Of a stretch of 64,000 nt of DNA, positions 36,948-45,325 are shown in pieces. Under the pieces are notes generated by a model. It saw only the letters and a program-made list of their open reading frames with translations. It made no database searches and was not told the DNA's origin. Position 1 is the first letter of the stretch. The number at the start of each line of letters is the position of its first letter. Location of the stretch: assembly GCF_029223285.1 (NCBI RefSeq), contig NZ_JARHUJ010000001.1, positions 1 to 64,000 on the forward strand, given 5' to 3'. The DNA is from Paraflavitalea sp. CAU 1676. Its GTDB lineage: Bacteria > Bacteroidota > Bacteroidia > Chitinophagales > Chitinophagaceae. Position numbers and translations under genes: made by a program.

Positions 36948-37700
36948 TTATCGGGCGCGCATCACTTTGTCATACAGGGTTTTCAGTTGAGTGTCACCAA
37001 AGCCGTAAATGCTTTCGCGTTTCCAGAATTCTTTAAACACTTCATGGAAGTCAGTAGAGATATTCTTTGTGATGTCTTCAATAACTTGTTCAGGTCTGCC
37101 CTTTGAGCCATCTTTAGGAAAGCGGTCAACATGTGCCTTTACTACTTCTTGCAGGTACGAGAAAGGTACAGATGGATGCTTTGAGAGATTTGTCAACTCA
37201 TCAAGGTTGTCGTTTTTGTAAGCATTCCACAATGCTTGCCCGAAAAATAGGTCGCCCTCACTTAAAGGAATTCTATTCGCATAACAAACGTTAAGTTCCT
37301 CTGAATTGGCAGGTCCAAAGCCATTCCAGAAGTGTTTATTGGTTTTGTCTAAGTGGGAAGTATAAACAGCAAAAACTGTTTTCTTTATTGGCAAGCTATT
37401 GACGACTGAAATAACAAACCACATATTTACCTGACAAAACAGATCATACTCAAACCAGAGATTGAACTCAGAATTAACAGGGGCATCTAATATTTTTTCA
37501 AATTCTTTTACAACAGCATTATAGTATTCGGCTTCTGTGATATTGAGGTATTGAGTTCTTGATTGCCAAAAGTCATGGAGGTTGTCACCTGACAAGTCTC
37601 CGTCAATAAGCGCTTCTCTGATGACAACAATACTTCCTTCAATTTTTGCTTCCGGAAAACTATAAGCAAGGGAGTCGCCGTTTAAAACATGGTATACCAT
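36948..37700 (-). CDS. DUF1835-like protein
   Basis: 250 residues. The N-terminus MVYHVLNGDSLAYSF and then a strand plus REALIDGDL match the opening of DUF1835, a domain of unknown function in stand-alone proteins of this size. The middle has an acidic FEKILDAP helix and a Trp-rich WFEYDLFCQVNMWFVISVV segment. The C-terminal half is helical. It is transcribed away from the VOC gene and follows the JAB/115-aa/sigma2-like module in the same direction after 64 bases, so it may be the fourth gene of that transcript. Base composition is AT-richer than the genes to the left. Confidence 0.6.
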   Translation of the reverse strand: MVYHVLNGDSLAYSFPEAKIEGSIVVIREALIDGDLSGDNLHDFWQSRTQYLNITEAEYYNAVVKEFEKILDAPVNSEFNLWFEYDLFCQVNMWFVISVVNSLPIKKTVFAVYTSHLDKTNKHFWNGFGPANSEELNVCYANRIPLSEGDLFFGQALWNAYKNDNLDELTNLSKHPSVPFSYLQEVVKAHVDRFPKDGSKGRPEQVIEDITKNISTDFHEVFKEFWKRESIYGFGDTQLKTLYDKVMRAR

Positions 37701-37764: not shown

Positions 37765-38340
37765 TCAATACTTTATACCCAGGAAATCAGATTGCATAAG
37801 CCCATTGTCGGCGAAGGAGAAACAGGCCTCTTTCGAGAAAATCAGGTGATCAACTACTTCAATACCCATCAGCCTGCCGGAAAGGGCTAAAGACCTGGTT
37901 GCAATAATGTCTGCATGGGAGGGCTTCAAGTCGCCGCTTGTATTGTTATTACCTAAAATGATCTTTCCTGCACCGGATAGTAGGGCCGCCGAAAAAATAA
38001 ACTTCGGGTCGAAGAGCGCTTTGTCCATGCACCCGGTAGCAACCTCCGAAATCCCTAAGACCTTGTTGGCGTTGGTTAATAAGAGGATCTTGAGCTGTTT
38101 CACGAGCTCGATTTTATTCCAGTCCCAATGAATCAGGAAAACTTCGAAGGCATCCATACAGTCGCCGATAATAGGCCGCTTTGAGCGGTCGGCATCCGCC
38201 TTGTAGATCAGCTCTACCAGGGGCACTTGAAAGTCCTGCACCTTTTCGAGTTTCACTTTCTTGACCTTTGCAGGCAGCGGGAAGGCCGGCAAAATAGTTG
38301 CCGCCGCCTTATTGAGTTGATTTTTCCCTTTTACTGGCAT
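37765..38340 (-). CDS. RadC/JAB-domain protein with both zinc-binding His replaced
   Basis: 191 residues from the ATG at 38340. After a Lys-rich N-terminus (about 1-35), the RadC/MPN core runs AFEVFLIHWDWNKIELVKQL, then ISEVATGCMDKALFDPKFIF, then the JAMM loop and VVDHLIFSKE. A catalytic JAMM loop reads HNHPSG and here it is NNNTSG (131-136), so both zinc-ligand His are Asn, while Ser135 and D144 of the SxxD element remain. Metalloprotease activity is therefore unlikely and a binding role more plausible. It overlaps the 115-residue gene by 32 bases. Confidence 0.75.
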   Translation of the reverse strand: MPVKGKNQLNKAAATILPAFPLPAKVKKVKLEKVQDFQVPLVELIYKADADRSKRPIIGDCMDAFEVFLIHWDWNKIELVKQLKILLLTNANKVLGISEVATGCMDKALFDPKFIFSAALLSGAGKIILGNNNTSGDLKPSHADIIATRSLALSGRLMGIEVVDHLIFSKEACFSFADNGLMQSDFLGIKY

Positions 38341-38656
38341 GGCTGTTCTTTTTAGTGGTTTTAGATTTTCGCTTAGTTTGACCCTTCTGCTCCGCCTTTC
38401 TGTGGAGTAGATAGGCGGCTTCGGCCAGCTTTTCGAGGTTTTCGTATAGGAATAGCAGATTACTGCGATCCAAGCCTTCCTGGAACCAACTTCCGTCATG
38501 GCATAGGCCAGCGCACAGCCATTCCCACAATACATCTCGCAGATCATGTAGGTGATAGTTCGTGAAAAACTCAGCTAGCACGCTTTTGGGGTCACTTTGT
38601 TCCTCATGGGAAAGTCGCCGAAGCTGGTTTGGTATTTCAAGAGTTTCCGGTTTCAT
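38309..38656 (-). CDS. Unknown 115-residue protein in the sigma2-like/JAB module
   Basis: I recognise no named family. Residues 25-90 are helical and aromatic-rich (VLAEFFTNYHLHDLRDVLWE, then an RSNLLFLYENLEKLAEAAYL helix), followed by a very basic, low-complexity tail of about 30 residues rich in Lys, Ser and Thr, which suggests nucleic-acid contact. Its start overlaps the sigma2-like gene by 20 bases and its end overlaps the JAB gene by 32 bases. These nested overlaps indicate coordinated translation and a shared function. Confidence 0.65.
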   Translation of the reverse strand: MKPETLEIPNQLRRLSHEEQSDPKSVLAEFFTNYHLHDLRDVLWEWLCAGLCHDGSWFQEGLDRSNLLFLYENLEKLAEAAYLLHRKAEQKGQTKRKSKTTKKNSHASKREKSTQ

Positions 38657-39035
38657 AGCAATTGTTTATGCGTTTTTCAATAGTGTGGAAAATGTGCTCC
38701 TGGCCAATTACTTCTAATATTTTCTGCACACGATGGTCATGAGCGCGTTCTTTTAGATAGCGGAAAGTTACCTGCATAGTTGTTCGGTACAAACAGCCGC
38801 CATTGTATTGAAGAAAATCATCCCGGTTACCCCAGAGTTGGAGGAATACCGATTCCGTAAGGAGGCAAAGAATGCCTGGGGCTTGAATTCCAGAGTAGCG
38901 GGCTATTATTGAAAAGGTAGAGTCGTAGAAGAACTCGCAAAATTTTGCGAAAACCTGTCCGTTGCCGGAGGCAATAGCACGGGGTTGAGAATCGGTGTAA
39001 GCTTTATGCCGAAGTCGGCTGTTCATACGCCGCAA
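38637..39035 (-). CDS. Stand-alone sigma-70 region 2-like protein
   Basis: 132 residues; MNSRL at 39026 is an alternative start. Residues 27-97 align by pattern with sigma region 2 of ECF factors, and with the true ECF factor at 51694 here. Both show a VFxKF-x-x-FY opening, a SVFLQLWGNRDDF segment where ECF factors have DVFxxxWxxR, and a LYRTTMQVTFRYLKERA helix that equals the -10-binding helix. Only about 35 residues follow, with no region 4 helix-turn-helix, so -35 recognition is missing. It could be an unusual sigma, an anti-sigma decoy or a DNA-binding subunit. It is the first gene of the overlapping three-gene module. Confidence 0.6.
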   Translation of the reverse strand: MRRMNSRLRHKAYTDSQPRAIASGNGQVFAKFCEFFYDSTFSIIARYSGIQAPGILCLLTESVFLQLWGNRDDFLQYNGGCLYRTTMQVTFRYLKERAHDHRVQKILEVIGQEHIFHTIEKRINNCYETGNS

Positions 39036-39323
39036 TTTGGGTGGAGAATAAATTGCAGGTAAGGGCCAACAATAAGATAGGCATGGGTTGGTCCTTACTG
39101 CACTGGAGGGCTACCACGCCCGACGGCGAATAAGAACGCCCACGCCTAGCCTTTAAAGATAAAGGAAACGTGAGCGATTTACCTTATTTCCCGCCGTCAT
39201 TGAAAGTGGTAGTTTCCAGTGCGAGATTCAAAGCAAATACGCTTTTCGAAACGGTACTATTGATTATTTAGTCAAGATGTGTTCTTTTTCATAATTGCGT
39301 CGCGATGGTTTGTCAATCAATTG

Positions 39324-39338
39324 TTATAGAATATCCTA
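39324..39338. promoter_or_regulatory. Operator-like site, distal copy
   Basis: TTATAGAATATCCTA. The core TAGAATATCCTA is near-palindromic (10 of 12 positions match its reverse complement). A second copy lies 95 bases downstream. Likely bound by the small XRE regulator. Confidence 0.45.
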
Positions 39339-39418
39339 CACAAGGTATGGTATTTCCCACATGTATGCAAAGAAGTTGTGAGTATTTCCATAGTTTTTTA
39401 CTTTCATTCCTTCAATTA

Positions 39419-39433
39419 TTATAGAAAATCCTA
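39419..39433. promoter_or_regulatory. Operator-like site, proximal copy
   Basis: TTATAGAAAATCCTA differs from the distal copy at one base and ends eight bases before the XRE start codon, a position suited to autorepression. Confidence 0.45.
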
Positions 39434-39440
39434 ACAATCA

Positions 39441-39656
39441 ATGACTAAGCTGGGAGTATATCTGGCTCAGAAATCGGTGAATAAGTCTGAAGTGGCTCGC
39501 AAAACTGGTTTATCAAGGGCAAGAATGAATGAACTTACATTACATGATCGCAGCCATTTGAGGGCTGAAGAATTGTATCTAATAGCCTTGGCCATTGATG
39601 TGAAGCCCTGTGAGCTACTTGAGGCTCTATTTGGAAAGCTGAAGTTGGAGGAATAA
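39441..39656 (+). CDS. Small XRE-family HTH regulator (controller-like)
   Basis: 71 residues, essentially one XRE/Cro helix-turn-helix: NKSEVARKTGLSRARMNELT (about 14-33), then the helix-4/5 region RAEELYLIALAIDVKPCELL. Size and position match the C-protein type of regulator that sets the timing of restriction-modification gene expression. The large RM gene follows in the same direction. Two near-palindromic elements lie upstream, one just before its start. Confidence 0.82.
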   Translation: MTKLGVYLAQKSVNKSEVARKTGLSRARMNELTLHDRSHLRAEELYLIALAIDVKPCELLEALFGKLKLEE

Positions 39657-39775
39657 GTCTTAAGTAAGATAATGTCCCATTTAGGATCACCCGTTATAAT
39701 TTCTGGTATTGGAGCTCATAATTTTGAAGACTTCCGGTTTGCACGCCCATTAGACATGTCTAGACCTTTAAATCA

Positions 39776-39916
39776 ATGGGTAACATCATAGCAGATAGGA
39801 GTATAAAAGTATTCAACTTCACAAAAACGAATCTTAACATAGCAAATGAGTTCTCTGTGCTGAAGCTTTTAGAGCCCCGTTTGAAAACCTTAACCAACTT
39901 TTATAAAGAATATTGA
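39776..39916 (+). CDS. Possible 46-residue leader-type protein before the RM gene
   Basis: ATG to TGA, stopping six bases before the start of the RM gene. The product begins MGNIIADRSIKVFNFTKTNL and ends TNFYKEY. Spacing suggests translational coupling to the RM enzyme. No family is recognised. The rest of the 266-base gap is AT-rich with no other frame of interest. Confidence 0.3.
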   Translation: MGNIIADRSIKVFNFTKTNLNIANEFSVLKLLEPRLKTLTNFYKEY

Positions 39917-39922
39917 TTATAG

Positions 39923-42900
39923 ATGGAGTTAAAAGAATTGAAGCCGAGAAAGGCGCTTAACAAGGCCTACTTAAAAGTGAAACCAAACAGGGCAGAGGTA
40001 GAAAGGTTCAAGACCAATTTAGTCGCTTTACTAGATGGGACAAACGATACAGAAAGCGAAGAGTTTCATAAGAATCTTGTTATTGACTTTCTAAAAAAAA
40101 CCTACTACGACCCCAACCATTTTGTAAATACCAAGGGTCGAAACGATCTTGTTATTCATAATGGCAACATCGCTAAAAGCTCTGTCGGCGTAATCATAGA
40201 AGCTAAAAAGCCGACCAACAAAGCGGAGATGGTGACTGCCAGAAAGATTAACACTAAAGCGTTTCAGGAGTTGGTGCTATATTATTTGCGGGAAAGAATT
40301 ACGCAAAAAAATTTTGAAGTTAAGCACTTGGTGGTGACCAATATTAATGAATGGTTCATTTTTGATGCAACCCTTTTTGATAGACTGTTTGCTCAAAATA
40401 AGAACTTAATAAGGCACTTCAATGATTTTGAAGGGGGGCGGTTGGCTGATACCAAAACCGACTTTTTCTATAAGCAAATTGCCGAGCCGTTTATTGATAG
40501 CATTGCTACTGACATTGAATTCACTTATTTCAATCTTCAGGACTTTCAAAAGCCATTACGCAATAGCAACAAAGCAGACGATAATTCACTGATTGCTTTA
40601 TTCAAGCTTTTATCACCTGAACATCTTTTAAAGCTTCCATTCAACAATGATAGTAACAGTCTCGATAAGCGCTTTTATAGTGAATTATTGCACATTATCG
40701 GACTGACCGAAACCAAAGAAGGTAGCAAAAAGCTAATTGAGCGAAACAAGGTAGGAGAACGCCACACTGGAACAATGCTTGAAGATGCCATTATTCAGCT
40801 TGACAGTTTGGACAAACTGGGCCGACTTGAAAAGCCAGCGCAGTTCGGAAGTGCCAAAAATGAAAGACTATTCAATGTTGCCCTCGAACTTTCCATCACC
40901 TGGATAAACCGCATTTTGTTTTTGAAGCTGTTGGAAGCCCAACTGATTACCTATCACAAAGGGGACAAATCCTATTCGTTTCTAAATCTTGACAAAATCA
41001 AAAACTATGATGACCTGAATAGCTTGTTTTTTCAAGTGTTGGCTCGTAAGTATGAAGAAAGAAACGACGATGTAAAAAAGGCATTTGAGAAAACGCCATA
41101 TCTCAACTCTTCACTTTTTGAACCTACTGACATTGAGCAGGTTACTTTGTTCATAAGTAACCTGAAGGATGATAAAGCCATTCCAATTTTTTCCCAAACC
41201 GTACTGAAAGACCAGCTTGGCAAAAAGAGAACGGGAAATTTGTCTACACTTGAGTATCTTTTTTCGTTTTTGGACGCATACGATTTCGGTAGCGAAGGTT
41301 CAGAGGAAATTCAGGAAGATAACAAAGCGCTAATCAATGCCTCGGTCCTTGGATTGATTTTCGAGAAGATAAACGGCTACAAGGATGGCTCATTCTTCAC
41401 GCCAGGATTTATCACTATGTATATGTGCCGAGAGACCATCCGCAAATCGGTAATTCAAAAGTTCAATGAGGTCAAGAAATGGAATTGCAACAGCATCGAA
41501 GATTTGTACGACAAAATTGAAGATCGCAAGGAAGCCAACAGAATCGTTAATAGTATAAGAATTTGCGATCCTGCTGTTGGTTCAGGGCATTTTTTGGTTT
41601 CTGCTCTTAATGAATTGATTGCTGTTAAAAACGATCTGAAAATATTGTTGGATCGGGACGGCAAGCGAATGAAAGAGTATCAAGTAGAAGTGGTTAATGA
41701 CGAATTGATTGTAACAGACGAGGAAGGAGAGCTTTTTGATTATGTTCCAAACAACAAAGAAAGCCAGCGTGTACAGGAAGCACTCTTTCACGAGAAGCAA
41801 ACTATTATAGAGAATTGTCTTTTTGGTGTTGATATTAATTCAAATTCTGTAAAAATATGTCGTTTGCGTTTATGGATTGAGCTTTTGAAGAATGCTTATT
41901 ACAAAAGTGCAAGCGAACTTGAAACGCTTCCGAACATTGACATTAACATCAAGTGTGGAAACTCTTTAGTAAGTCGCTTTGCAATTGATGCGGACTTGAA
42001 GCAGGCGCTTAGAAAAAGCAAGTGGACTATCGACGGATACCGAATAGCGGTTGATACTTATCGTAATGCTCAGAGCAAGGAACAGAAGAGGGAGATGGAG
42101 AGGTTAATTGCAGATATTAAATCTGACTTTAGAAGTGAAATATCTTTAAATGATCCCAAGGTTAAAAGCCTGCAAAAAGTTAGGGGAGAACTATTGAAGG
42201 TGTCCACAATGCAAAGTCTTTTTGATGTAAGCAAAAAGGAAAAGGTAGGGTGGAACAAAAAAGTGCAACAGCTGACGGATGCGACAAAAAAGCTTGAAGC
42301 AGAGATTGAAGAAATAAAGGCCAATAAGATATTTGAGAATGCCTTCGAATGGCGTTTTGAATTCCCTGAAGTGCTTGATGATGATGGCAATTTTCTGGGA
42401 TTTGATGTTGTAATCGGGAATCCGCCTTATATCAGGCAAGAAGAAATCAAAGATTATAAGCCATATTTTAAGTCTCAATTCAAACTTTATACGGGAACGG
42501 CAGATGTCTATGTGTTCTTCGTTGAAAAAGGCTTTGATATTTTGAAGGATAGTGGTGTTTTTACATTTATTATGCCCAACAAATTTATGCAGGCGGGATA
42601 TGGACAACCTGCTCGCAGATTCCTGTTACACCAGAATCTGATTGAAATAATTGACTTTGGCGATTTTCAGATTTTCGAGGAAGCCACTACGTATCCATGT
42701 ATTTTGACTGCAAGTAAGGAAAAAGCTAAGGGAATATTTAGGACTGTGAAAGTGGACACTCTTGAGTTTATTGGAGATTTTCCCAAGTATATTTCGAATA
42801 TAACTAACGAAATTAGCCACAGCTCCCTGAATGAAGAAACGTGGGTTGTCACTAATTCACAAGATCAAAGTTTATTGCAGAAAGTTGCTGCAAAAGGGAG

Positions 42901-43675
42901 AAAGTTGGGAGACTACGTCAGTGAAATGGGGAAGTATGGCATTAAAACTGGGCTAACGGAAGCTTTTGTGGTTGAAAAGGAGAAGGCTGAGGTTTTTATT
43001 AATTCCAATTCGGAAAATAGAAATCATTTGCGGCCATTTTTGCTTGGTCGTGAGGTGAAGTCCTACGTTGCTGGAAGTCCAGCTAATTATCTGATAAAAT
43101 TCGAAAAAGGGTTCACAAGGAAATTTGGGGGGGGTAAGCCGGAAGGGTGGTTTGAGGAAAAATTTCCTGAGTTATTCAGTCATTTGAAAACTTTTGAGGA
43201 AAAAGCAAAGAATAGGACAGACAAAGGAGATTTTTATTGGGAATTGAGAGCTTGTGATTACTACGACAAGTTTGAGAAACCCAAAATTATGTATCAAGTA
43301 TTTCAGGTAAAGCCGTGTTTCATTTATGACGAGGATGGTGTTTACTGCAATAATTCAATGTGGTTTATCGTATCTGATGATAAGGTTCTTTTAGGCATAT
43401 TGAATTCCAAGATGGGGTGGTGGCTTATCTCCAAATATTGTACAGCCATTCAGAATGGTTACCAATTGATTTGGAAGTATTTTAGCCAATTGCCAATTGC
43501 CATAGGAAATGTTGAGGTGCGAGATAGAATTAGGGAATTGGTCGATGAAATTCTGTTGATTAAAAAGCATAATCCAGCAACCGAAACTTCAAATTTGGAA
43601 AGTAAAATTGATCAGTTGGTTTATATGCTTTACGAATTAACAGAAGAGGACATAAAGATTGTTGAATCTACATAA
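39923..43675 (+). CDS. Single-chain type IIG-like restriction-modification enzyme
   Basis: 1250 residues combining cleavage, methylation and target recognition. The N-terminal PD-(D/E)xK nuclease has D75 (NDLVIHNG) and E93-A-K95 (IIEAKKP). A helical connector (about 200-530) leads to the adenine-methyltransferase: motif I DPAVGSGHFL at 549-558, motif IV NPPY at 833-836 and a following helical segment. A TaqI-like target-recognition C-terminal domain (about 1000-1250) contains GIKTGLTEAFV and LRPFLLGREVKSY. One chain should methylate one strand of an asymmetric site and cut unmethylated invading DNA. The specificity cannot be read. Codon use is AT-rich compared with the flanks, suggesting horizontal transfer. 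Confidence 0.9.
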   Translation: MELKELKPRKALNKAYLKVKPNRAEVERFKTNLVALLDGTNDTESEEFHKNLVIDFLKKTYYDPNHFVNTKGRNDLVIHNGNIAKSSVGVIIEAKKPTNKAEMVTARKINTKAFQELVLYYLRERITQKNFEVKHLVVTNINEWFIFDATLFDRLFAQNKNLIRHFNDFEGGRLADTKTDFFYKQIAEPFIDSIATDIEFTYFNLQDFQKPLRNSNKADDNSLIALFKLLSPEHLLKLPFNNDSNSLDKRFYSELLHIIGLTETKEGSKKLIERNKVGERHTGTMLEDAIIQLDSLDKLGRLEKPAQFGSAKNERLFNVALELSITWINRILFLKLLEAQLITYHKGDKSYSFLNLDKIKNYDDLNSLFFQVLARKYEERNDDVKKAFEKTPYLNSSLFEPTDIEQVTLFISNLKDDKAIPIFSQTVLKDQLGKKRTGNLSTLEYLFSFLDAYDFGSEGSEEIQEDNKALINASVLGLIFEKINGYKDGSFFTPGFITMYMCRETIRKSVIQKFNEVKKWNCNSIEDLYDKIEDRKEANRIVNSIRICDPAVGSGHFLVSALNELIAVKNDLKILLDRDGKRMKEYQVEVVNDELIVTDEEGELFDYVPNNKESQRVQEALFHEKQTIIENCLFGVDINSNSVKICRLRLWIELLKNAYYKSASELETLPNIDINIKCGNSLVSRFAIDADLKQALRKSKWTIDGYRIAVDTYRNAQSKEQKREMERLIADIKSDFRSEISLNDPKVKSLQKVRGELLKVSTMQSLFDVSKKEKVGWNKKVQQLTDATKKLEAEIEEIKANKIFENAFEWRFEFPEVLDDDGNFLGFDVVIGNPPYIRQEEIKDYKPYFKSQFKLYTGTADVYVFFVEKGFDILKDSGVFTFIMPNKFMQAGYGQPARRFLLHQNLIEIIDFGDFQIFEEATTYPCILTASKEKAKGIFRTVKVDTLEFIGDFPKYISNITNEISHSSLNEETWVVTNSQDQSLLQKVAAKGRKLGDYVSEMGKYGIKTGLTEAFVVEKEKAEVFINSNSENRNHLRPFLLGREVKSYVAGSPANYLIKFEKGFTRKFGGGKPEGWFEEKFPELFSHLKTFEEKAKNRTDKGDFYWELRACDYYDKFEKPKIMYQVFQVKPCFIYDEDGVYCNNSMWFIVSDDKVLLGILNSKMGWWLISKYCTAIQNGYQLIWKYFSQLPIAIGNVEVRDRIRELVDEILLIKKHNPATETSNLESKIDQLVYMLYELTEEDIKIVEST

Positions 43676-43921
43676 TTGGGGACTGTGTCTGATTGCCAAA
43701 TATCTTAATCAACTAGCTGTTAGAATTGGAATGGGTTCGACTGCTATGTCGGGCATTATCTACATGAAGAGTTTCCGCCCATATTCTCCACAAGGCAATT
43801 TTTCAGACCCTTATATTTTTCAAGAAAAATTAACTATTTTTCTTGATGTGTAGGGTGTCTGCTAAAGGCGAGTTTGTTCAAAACTGGAATACGTTTGGTT
43901 TTGCTCAAGAAAAGGAATCTT

Positions 43922-44530
43922 ATGATAGAAGACATAATGTATACTTTCGACAAGAATTTTCTCAGGCTTAATAATTTAATTAGCCTGTATAAGACAATAG
44001 CAGTTGGCCAGGGACGCAAACCAGCGAACTCTCTTGATATATTAAGAGCTACAACTGTTTTAACTCACGCCACATTGGAGGACTATCTCAGGAATTTGTT
44101 GGAATGGAAGCTTCCTACTCAAGGGCGAGAAAAAATTGAGACCATTCCTCTTGTCGGAACTTCTGCTATTGGTCGGCCTACAAAATTCACATTGGGTGAT
44201 CTGGTAGCTCATCGAAACCAAAGCGTTGATATAATAATAAAGCAGTCGGTAAAAGAGTATTTAGGGACAATGAGCTTTAATGATACCTCTGATATCGCAA
44301 AAGCTTTAGTCAGCATTGCTCTCGTGGTGACACCTGATATTCAGGGCTTATTTCCAGCAGTGAATGAAATGATTAAAAGGAGGCATAATATTGTTCACCG
44401 AGCAGATAGAGTAGAAGTTGCTGGGAGTGGGAACCACAGTATAACATCAATAAGTGTACAAAAAGTAGAGAAATGGAAGAACACGGTGGATAAGCTTGTA
44501 TTTGAGATTAATAAGAATTTTATTGTTTAA
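43922..44530 (+). CDS. HEPN-motif protein, candidate RNase
   Basis: 202 residues from the ATG at 43922, all-helical. It has the HEPN signature R-x4-H at R154-H159 (KRRHNIVHRADR) near the C-terminal helix, and an earlier THATLEDYLRNLLEWKL helix of the sort that opens HEPN domains. HEPN proteins of defence systems and toxin-antitoxin pairs are often metal-independent RNases that act on infection. It is 246 bases after the RM gene and nine bases before the YegP gene, in the same direction. Whether it is the toxin of a pair or part of the RM system is open. Confidence 0.65.
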   Translation: MIEDIMYTFDKNFLRLNNLISLYKTIAVGQGRKPANSLDILRATTVLTHATLEDYLRNLLEWKLPTQGREKIETIPLVGTSAIGRPTKFTLGDLVAHRNQSVDIIIKQSVKEYLGTMSFNDTSDIAKALVSIALVVTPDIQGLFPAVNEMIKRRHNIVHRADRVEVAGSGNHSITSISVQKVEKWKNTVDKLVFEINKNFIV

Positions 44531-44538
44531 TTTTACTT

Positions 44539-44865
44539 ATGGGAAAGTTTATCGTTTCAAAGCGCTCCAATGGCGAATATCAGTTCAAATTAATAGCGAC
44601 AAACGGACAGATAATATTGTCAAGTGAGGGGTATGCTACAAAGTCTTCCTGCGAAAATGGAATAGCGTCTGTTAAGACAAATTCGCAAGACGATTCAAAA
44701 TTTATTAGAAAGACTGCGTCTAATGGGCTGTTCTATTTTAATTTAAAGGCTAATAATGGTGAGGTTATTGGGACGAGCGAAATGTACGCTAGCGAGTCAG
44801 GAAGAGAAAGCGGCATCTACTCTGTTAAGGTTAATGCAGGAGTTGGTAAAGTTGAATATTCGTGA
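44539..44865 (+). CDS. YegP/DUF1508 protein with two tandem repeats
   Basis: 108 residues built of two DUF1508 units. The first has FIVSKRSNGEYQFKLIATNG, ILSSEGYATKSSCENGIASV and KTNS. The second has FIRKTASNGLFYFNLKANNG, IGTSEMYASESGRESGIYSV and KVNA. This matches the YegP family, usually two repeats in about 110 residues. Its role is poorly known; it is common next to mobile or stress genes. It lies nine bases downstream of the HEPN gene, so the two may be co-expressed, and it is the last gene before the tRNA-Asn. Confidence 0.85.
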   Translation: MGKFIVSKRSNGEYQFKLIATNGQIILSSEGYATKSSCENGIASVKTNSQDDSKFIRKTASNGLFYFNLKANNGEVIGTSEMYASESGRESGIYSVKVNAGVGKVEYS

Positions 44866-45233: not shown

Positions 45234-45251
45234 AAGTTGTTAATTCTTAAG

Positions 45252-45325
45252 CTCCCCCTGCTGGACTTGAACCAGCGACCCTCTGATTAACAGTCAGATG
45301 CTCTAACCAACTGAGCTAAGGAGGA
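45252..45325 (-). tRNA. tRNA-Asn (anticodon GUU)
   Basis: 74 bases. Acceptor TCCTCCT / AGGGGGA with one G-U pair, discriminator G, anticodon stem TCTGA / TCAGA with loop CTGTTAA (anticodon GTT), and T arm GCTGG-TTCAAGT-CCAGC. No CCA is encoded. The 3' end faces the AT-rich island. Confidence 0.95.

Follow-up and report, generated by a model that had tools for sequence, protein, structure and literature searches.

Three small genes that overlap on the minus strand of Paraflavitalea sp. CAU 1676, encoding a sigma factor fragment (ORF1), a small protein of no recognised family (ORF2) and a RadC-like protein, raise the question of whether they form a functional unit or are remnants that happen to lie side by side and, if they do form a unit, how its expression could be controlled. 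We examined them within a window of 64,000 nucleotides (the whole stretch of DNA analysed) and by comparison with other genomes. The overlaps, 20 bases between ORF1 and ORF2 and 32 bases between ORF2 and the RadC gene, are as an earlier note on this DNA had described them, and the end that it gave for ORF1 (39035) is a TTG start located three codons upstream of the ATG at 39026 (table 1).

Table 1. Features of the three-gene unit and its upstream region, in window coordinates
Feature	Position	Strand	Basis
ORF1, sigma-70 (ECF) region-2-only protein, 129 aa from ATG	39026..38637	minus	profile comparison, alignment
ORF2, 115 aa, predicted helical, basic tail, family without a Pfam model	38656..38309	minus	profiles, AlphaFold
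RadC/JAB-domain protein, 191 aa, NNNTSG replacing HxHPSG	38340..37765	minus	PF04002
Putative structured leader RNA, rod of stacked helices plus 3' segment	39058..39244	minus	covariance model matches, compensatory changes, folding
Terminator-like helix (proposed), 5' arm, also part of the rod apical helices	39130..39145	minus	duplex permutation test
Terminator-like helix (proposed), 3' arm, separated from the 5' arm by 32 nt	39081..39097	minus	duplex permutation test

The whole unit (~1.5 kb) is present three times in its own genome, in the window and as copies C18 and C21, with 79-85% nucleotide identity and with flanks that are unrelated when the copies are aligned. Ratios of dN/dS among the three copies, short overlaps included, are 0.19-0.28 for ORF1, 0.15-0.28 for ORF2 and 0.11-0.15 for RadC. 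Chance adjacency, with a truncated sigma factor and an inactive RadC undergoing decay, would account for the missing sigma region 4 and the loss of both histidine ligands, but it is contradicted by these ratios, by the RadC motif NNNTSG, which is kept despite synonymous codon variation among the copies, and by region-2-only genes that adjoin ORF2 in other genera too; we regard it as highly improbable. Because three copies stand in unrelated flanks and every gene has a dN/dS of 0.11-0.28, the unit is not decaying and the adjacency of its genes is not due to chance. The earlier note had named a gene order unique to this strain, or a sigma match failing a profile search, as grounds for dismissing the module; the unit was found to recur three times and the sigma match passes profile comparison. 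Recurrence of the gene order extends to the three copies in one genome and no further, the complete triad being confined to that genome among the loci examined, which comprised part of the RadC and ORF2 matches in relatives. No PADLOC model matches the module (the neighbouring type IIG enzyme alone does so), and its likeness to no known system held up in all the libraries searched. The AT-rich island in which the note placed it is apparent in seven of eight 1-kb bins between 37 and 45 kb (GC 0.36-0.40, about 0.50 outside the island), but the bin with most of the module has a GC of 0.475, so that the AT content of the module is below that of the island around it.

ORF1 was predicted from the sequence to have a sigma region 2 without a region 4, and profile comparison agrees. 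It aligns with a small ECF-type alignment over region 2 only (hhalign, 95.8% probability, E = 8e-9) and with an ECF sigma factor of its own genome (phmmer, E = 3e-7, among the ORFs searched), while a Pfam scan gave no direct hit. The alignment indicates that the protein ends after region 2 and has no region 4 helix-turn-helix. ORF1 therefore resembles ECF sigma factors (PF04542/PF08281) over region 2 and departs from them in its length of 129 aa, in the absence of region 4 and in the likely polymerase-contact acids, the acidic residues of region 2.2 of ordinary ECF factors being mostly substituted when the alignment is inspected by eye. Of the 98 ORF2-family ORFs surveyed, 12 have a sigma-like gene immediately upstream, and the alignment has ten of these genes stopping after region 2 and two retaining region 4; Pfam was run on part of the 12 and confirmed region 4 in L072, while for PF04542 (cut-off 24 bits) L098 passes with 28.2 bits and L089 falls just short with 21.7.

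ORF2 has no family in Pfam, PADLOC or PHROG and a single sub-cut-off hit in NCBIfam (E = 0.08), in keeping with the earlier description of the 115-aa protein as unrecognised; there is no accepted match in any of the four libraries. It is nevertheless, by its profile matches, a member of a large family that lacks a Pfam model. A profile made from the three copies matches all five genomes of the genus, and a 19-member profile matches 73 of 294 host-family genomes. These 73 genomes belong to 34 of the 101 genera, and as many as 13 domain matches fall in one genome, a lower bound as the best 16 candidates per genome were scored. We hand-picked 60 ORF2 loci from the match list of the 19-member profile; in all, 85 loci gave 98 distinct ORF2-family ORFs, 22 of them with two or more matches to the domain. 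Searched with the window ORF2, plasmid and phage records gave no match at E <= 0.01, and viral contigs none. An AlphaFold model from eight aligned sequences (pLDDT 79.9), which replaced a single-sequence model (pLDDT 64), is helical and has no fold match in the PDB at E <= 0.001. L078 (1178-3009) has a tandem of three overlapping genes with two ORF2-domain matches apiece. At L140 (3044-5066) and L161 (2868-4974), both behind a leader RNA of the type described below, an ORF2-domain gene of 384-413 aa overlaps a second gene of ~290 aa with ORF2-type domains; the second gene at L140 also has a helix-turn-helix, and the first one there is HEPN-fused by Pfam.

The pairing of ORF1 with ORF2 recalls the RsoA/SigO split sigma factor of Bacillus, in which a region-2-only protein is encoded beside its partner. 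ORF1 and ORF2 could likewise be a two-part sigma factor, with ORF1 providing the region 2 contact with polymerase and the -10 site and ORF2 serving as the second part, as the directly upstream position of the sigma-like genes and the truncation of 10 of the 12 might suggest. However, ORF2 differs from the Bacillus partner in having no recognisable region 4, it is predicted to be plainly helical with no Pfam helix-turn-helix, and the region 2.2 acids of ORF1 are largely replaced. Furthermore, ORF2 is not a simple replacement for region 4, because two of the pairs carry a complete sigma factor. We think a two-part sigma factor quite unlikely.

The third protein matches PF04002 (E = 4e-25) and has the motif NNNTSG..PSxxD, so that the reported change of both zinc-binding histidines to asparagine, with SxxD kept, is correct. 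It shares its fold and the PSxxD motif with RadC/JAB proteins and differs from them in that NNN replaces HxH in all three module copies, whereas the 32 other RadCs inspected all have HxHPSG. The ten best RadCs outside its own genome, in a search of relatives, are 38-45% identical to it. Viral contigs contain at least two loci matching the RadC query, both with HxH. As it has a RadC fold without zinc ligands, the protein probably serves for binding or as a scaffold, rather than as a protease.

The ~200 nt upstream of ORF1 are also conserved in all three copies, and the ~170-nt leader located there shares 82% identity with that of a sister species (G004, L086), in which the sigma region 2 protein is only 17% identical. 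Folding of 39040-39236 gave z-scores of -6.5 for the minus strand and -5.8 for the other strand. When four sequences were compared, pairing was preserved in 99% of 196 cells and double changes occurred in 10 of 53 pairs, a result reached in none of 500 shuffles, with slid controls at 37-46%; the structure used for this count was derived from the fold of the window's own copy, one of the four. Across 55 copies, in an alignment fitted to the covariance model, 94% of cells are paired, against 37-43% in slid controls, and covariation is seen at 47 of 53 pairs. One covariance model (R1) was not used further, as the 3' hairpin was missing from its automatically derived structure. Its counterpart R2, built from four leaders that each precede a sigma region 2-ORF2 operon, takes its structure from the single-sequence fold of the window copy, with the 3' hairpin completed by hand. 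A plus-strand match at L140 (E = 0.005) was discarded as spurious, which left the 55 copies.

Covariance model matches were found in 93 of 294 host-family genomes (E <= 0.01), and a model of the 55 copies matches 49 of 395 genomes of the phylum (E <= 0.001) and all five genomes of the genus. Copy numbers in the family and phylum searches are lower bounds, since the best eight (family) or seven (phylum) candidates per genome were scored. Eight places in the own genome carry a leader copy. Plasmid records gave no match to the window copy, and two copies (in Rhizosphaericola mali and Chryseobacterium shandongense) when the copy of a relative was the query; viral contigs contain none by one exact leader pattern. 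All 4227 models of Rfam 15 were compared with the window island at E <= 5 and matched only at the tRNA. At gathering level 20 other loci gave only tRNAs, and at E <= 2 17 loci gave four sub-threshold matches, none overlying the leader element. That the leader represents a structured RNA family without a match in Rfam 15 is thus a well-supported reading of these comparisons.

The inverted repeat might instead act as DNA, either as a recombination or insertion site in folded single-stranded form or as an interspersed repeat, with the operon travelling behind it and no RNA switch involved. Several copies per genome (eight in this one), their unrelated flanks and the nearly equal folding of the two strands (-76.2 kcal/mol for the operon strand, -75.6 for the other) are all compatible with such an element. 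Three pairs, however, are conserved as U-G (in 50, 48 and 40 of the 55 copies), which would be A-C on the opposite strand and favours an RNA in the operon sense. The leader also faces genes: among 40 fetched copies, mostly the best-scoring matches outside the loci already collected, the next ORF downstream with 80 aa or more is on the same strand in 35 and on the opposite strand in five, and the upstream neighbour is on the same strand in 14. A second helix, described next, covaries as well and is followed by T-runs, and we consider a DNA element improbable.

In this second helix the rod apical strand GCGUGGGC-GUUCUUA can pair with a strand of the UAAGGAC-UAA-CCCACGC type that follows the rod. 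For the 42 of 55 copies in which the arms could be parsed (the changed parse rule leaves 13 out of the counts), matched arms give -19.0 kcal/mol and permuted arms -15.75 (sd 0.42), and none of 2000 permutations reaches the matched value; the test ignores the relatedness of copies, and independent changes number fewer than 42 because only a few types of sequence are represented among the copies. An earlier parse rule (38 of 55 copies, 17 unparsed and left out) gave -19.96 and -16.70, respectively. A run of at least four T follows the helix in 36 of the 42 parsed copies, compared with 7.9% of random 12-mers. No run of four U occurs at this position in the window copy, nor, by a looser rule, in L238 and L249; the terminator of the window copy may therefore have been weakened or lost. 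Also against attenuation, the loop of the proposed terminator helix would span 32-33 nt (window, L039), and the segment behind the 3' arm offers that arm another pairing partner in the window and in some relatives. The rod and the second helix are both supported and share one strand, making them mutually exclusive; together with the U-run in 36 of 42 copies, this suggests a transcription attenuator.

Based on sequence comparison, which shows a conserved structure, covariation, a same-strand position before genes, an alternative helix and selection on the three proteins, we judge it rather probable that the island-borne operon is transcribed through the ~170-nt leader and that the leader is a cis-acting attenuator belonging to a wider family. 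Transcription would pass through the leader before reaching ORF1. In one state the long rod would form; in the other, GCGUGGGC-GUUCUUA would leave the rod and pair with the UAAGGAC-UAA-CCCACGC-type strand, producing a helix like that of an intrinsic terminator, ahead of a U-run in most parsed copies. Read-through would yield the sigma region 2 derivative, the small helical protein with its basic tail and the zinc-less RadC fold. We infer that termination does occur and is regulated, and ORF2-family proteins presumably have the leader as their target or the sigma fragment as their partner. Rod-like shape is a feature of 6S-flavo RNA (RF01685). The leader is comparable to this RNA and to attenuator and riboswitch leaders in that it is long, structured and located 5', and that a terminator is proposed as its alternative fold, but unlike them it matches no Rfam 15 family. 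Titles listed in searches of the open-access literature include none on the leader or the triad. A study of Flavobacterium psychrophilum (PMC9723704) gives 64 structured 5' regions, with which an overlap of the leader is possible, and the motif table in PMC2864571 includes Bacteroidetes motifs, many with Rfam numbers.

The genes that follow the leader are diverse. In 12 of the 40 copies an ORF2-domain ORF on the leader strand begins no more than 1.5 kb beyond the leader; none of the 40 has such an ORF upstream, nor on the opposite strand downstream. Two of these loci were chosen knowingly, L261 (lower scoring and known to lie beside an ORF2 gene) and L262 (same genus), and without both the association is 10 of 38; leaders beside ORF2 genes at L140, L141 and L180 are outside the 40. 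The 40 loci gave 79 downstream ORFs (three loci had none by the rule used), of which 77 were scanned with Pfam and two longer than 1000 aa were left out. The scan identified HEPN domains in nine, SymE in four, sigma region 2 in three, histidine kinases in three and response regulators in two. Among 19 loci from the phylum search (L263-L281), eight (L264, L265, L268, L269, L274, L276, L278 and L279, from genomes of the same class) have a SusC/TonB-type receptor, identified by sequence, 206-363 nt after the leader. Conversely, the leader was undetected at five of the 12 sigma-ORF2 pairs (L089, L098, L135, L143 and L146) and at six loci where, by eye, an HEPN-like gene follows ORF2. The proteins and the leader are therefore not tied one to one, given these leaderless pairs and the many leaders that precede receptors, response regulators and kinases.

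The HEPN genes raise another possibility, namely that the unit is a toxin-antitoxin or anti-phage cassette whose proteins regulate or neutralise an HEPN toxin, the window copy having lost the HEPN gene. An HEPN-domain gene lies downstream of the C21 copy (L039) and directly behind ORF2 in L086, and the C18 copy (L038) is followed by an ORF of 61 aa located in sequence that matches part of the L039 HEPN gene at 73% identity. ORF2 is fused to HEPN in L140, L141 and L185, and to a helix-turn-helix in L140. HEPN and SymE account for 9 and 4 of the 77 leader-linked ORFs, and a type IIG restriction enzyme adjoins the window unit. The catalytic motif of HEPN proteins is R-x3-H; by eye it is present in L039 and L086, and its arginine is absent in L140, L141 and L185. 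The unit has ORF2-type genes, and sometimes the leader, in common with HEPN cassettes (PF05168), and we infer that it belongs with them. As a reading of its function, however, a toxin cassette is faced with a window unit that has no HEPN gene, a module without a PADLOC match and a majority of leader-linked ORFs that are neither HEPN nor SymE, and we hold it to be possible but doubtful.

Returning to attenuation by the leader, a broader version of this reading would make the ORF2 family, with or without a sigma region 2 partner, dedicated RNA-binding partners of the rod leader. The two would constitute a portable RNA-protein switch for antitermination or attenuation by which islands and chromosomes of Bacteroidota prevent toxins (HEPN, SymE), sigma factors and surface receptors from being expressed before a common signal arrives; we offer this tentatively and think it rather unlikely. 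As the leader family, which has no Rfam 15 match, recurs in many Bacteroidota genomes, the idea that one regulatory signal acts on very different genes can be tested. The leader would provide a plausible route for islands to keep toxic or costly genes off, and the ORF2 family, sigma fragments and zinc-less RadC can now be linked to HEPN-type cassettes.

A DUF1835-like gene (37700..36948) begins 64 bases beyond the RadC gene, the spacing given in the earlier note. Its suggested place as a fourth member of the unit was rejected because it is absent from the C18 and C21 copies, which carry different sequence there; with 21.7 bits against a Pfam cut-off of 21.1, it is a neighbour only. On the other side of the unit, an HTH_26 gene and most of the leader are common to the window (39068-39658) and the sister species (L086, 3244-3846) at 79% identity, and the operons differ beyond this stretch, an apparent case of downstream cassette swapping. 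The remainder of the island (39441-44865) encodes the HTH_26 regulator, the type IIG restriction-modification enzyme (PADLOC, E = 1.6e-288), a RiboL-PSP-type HEPN protein and a DUF1508 protein, and is followed by a tRNA-Asn at 45251-45325 on the minus strand.
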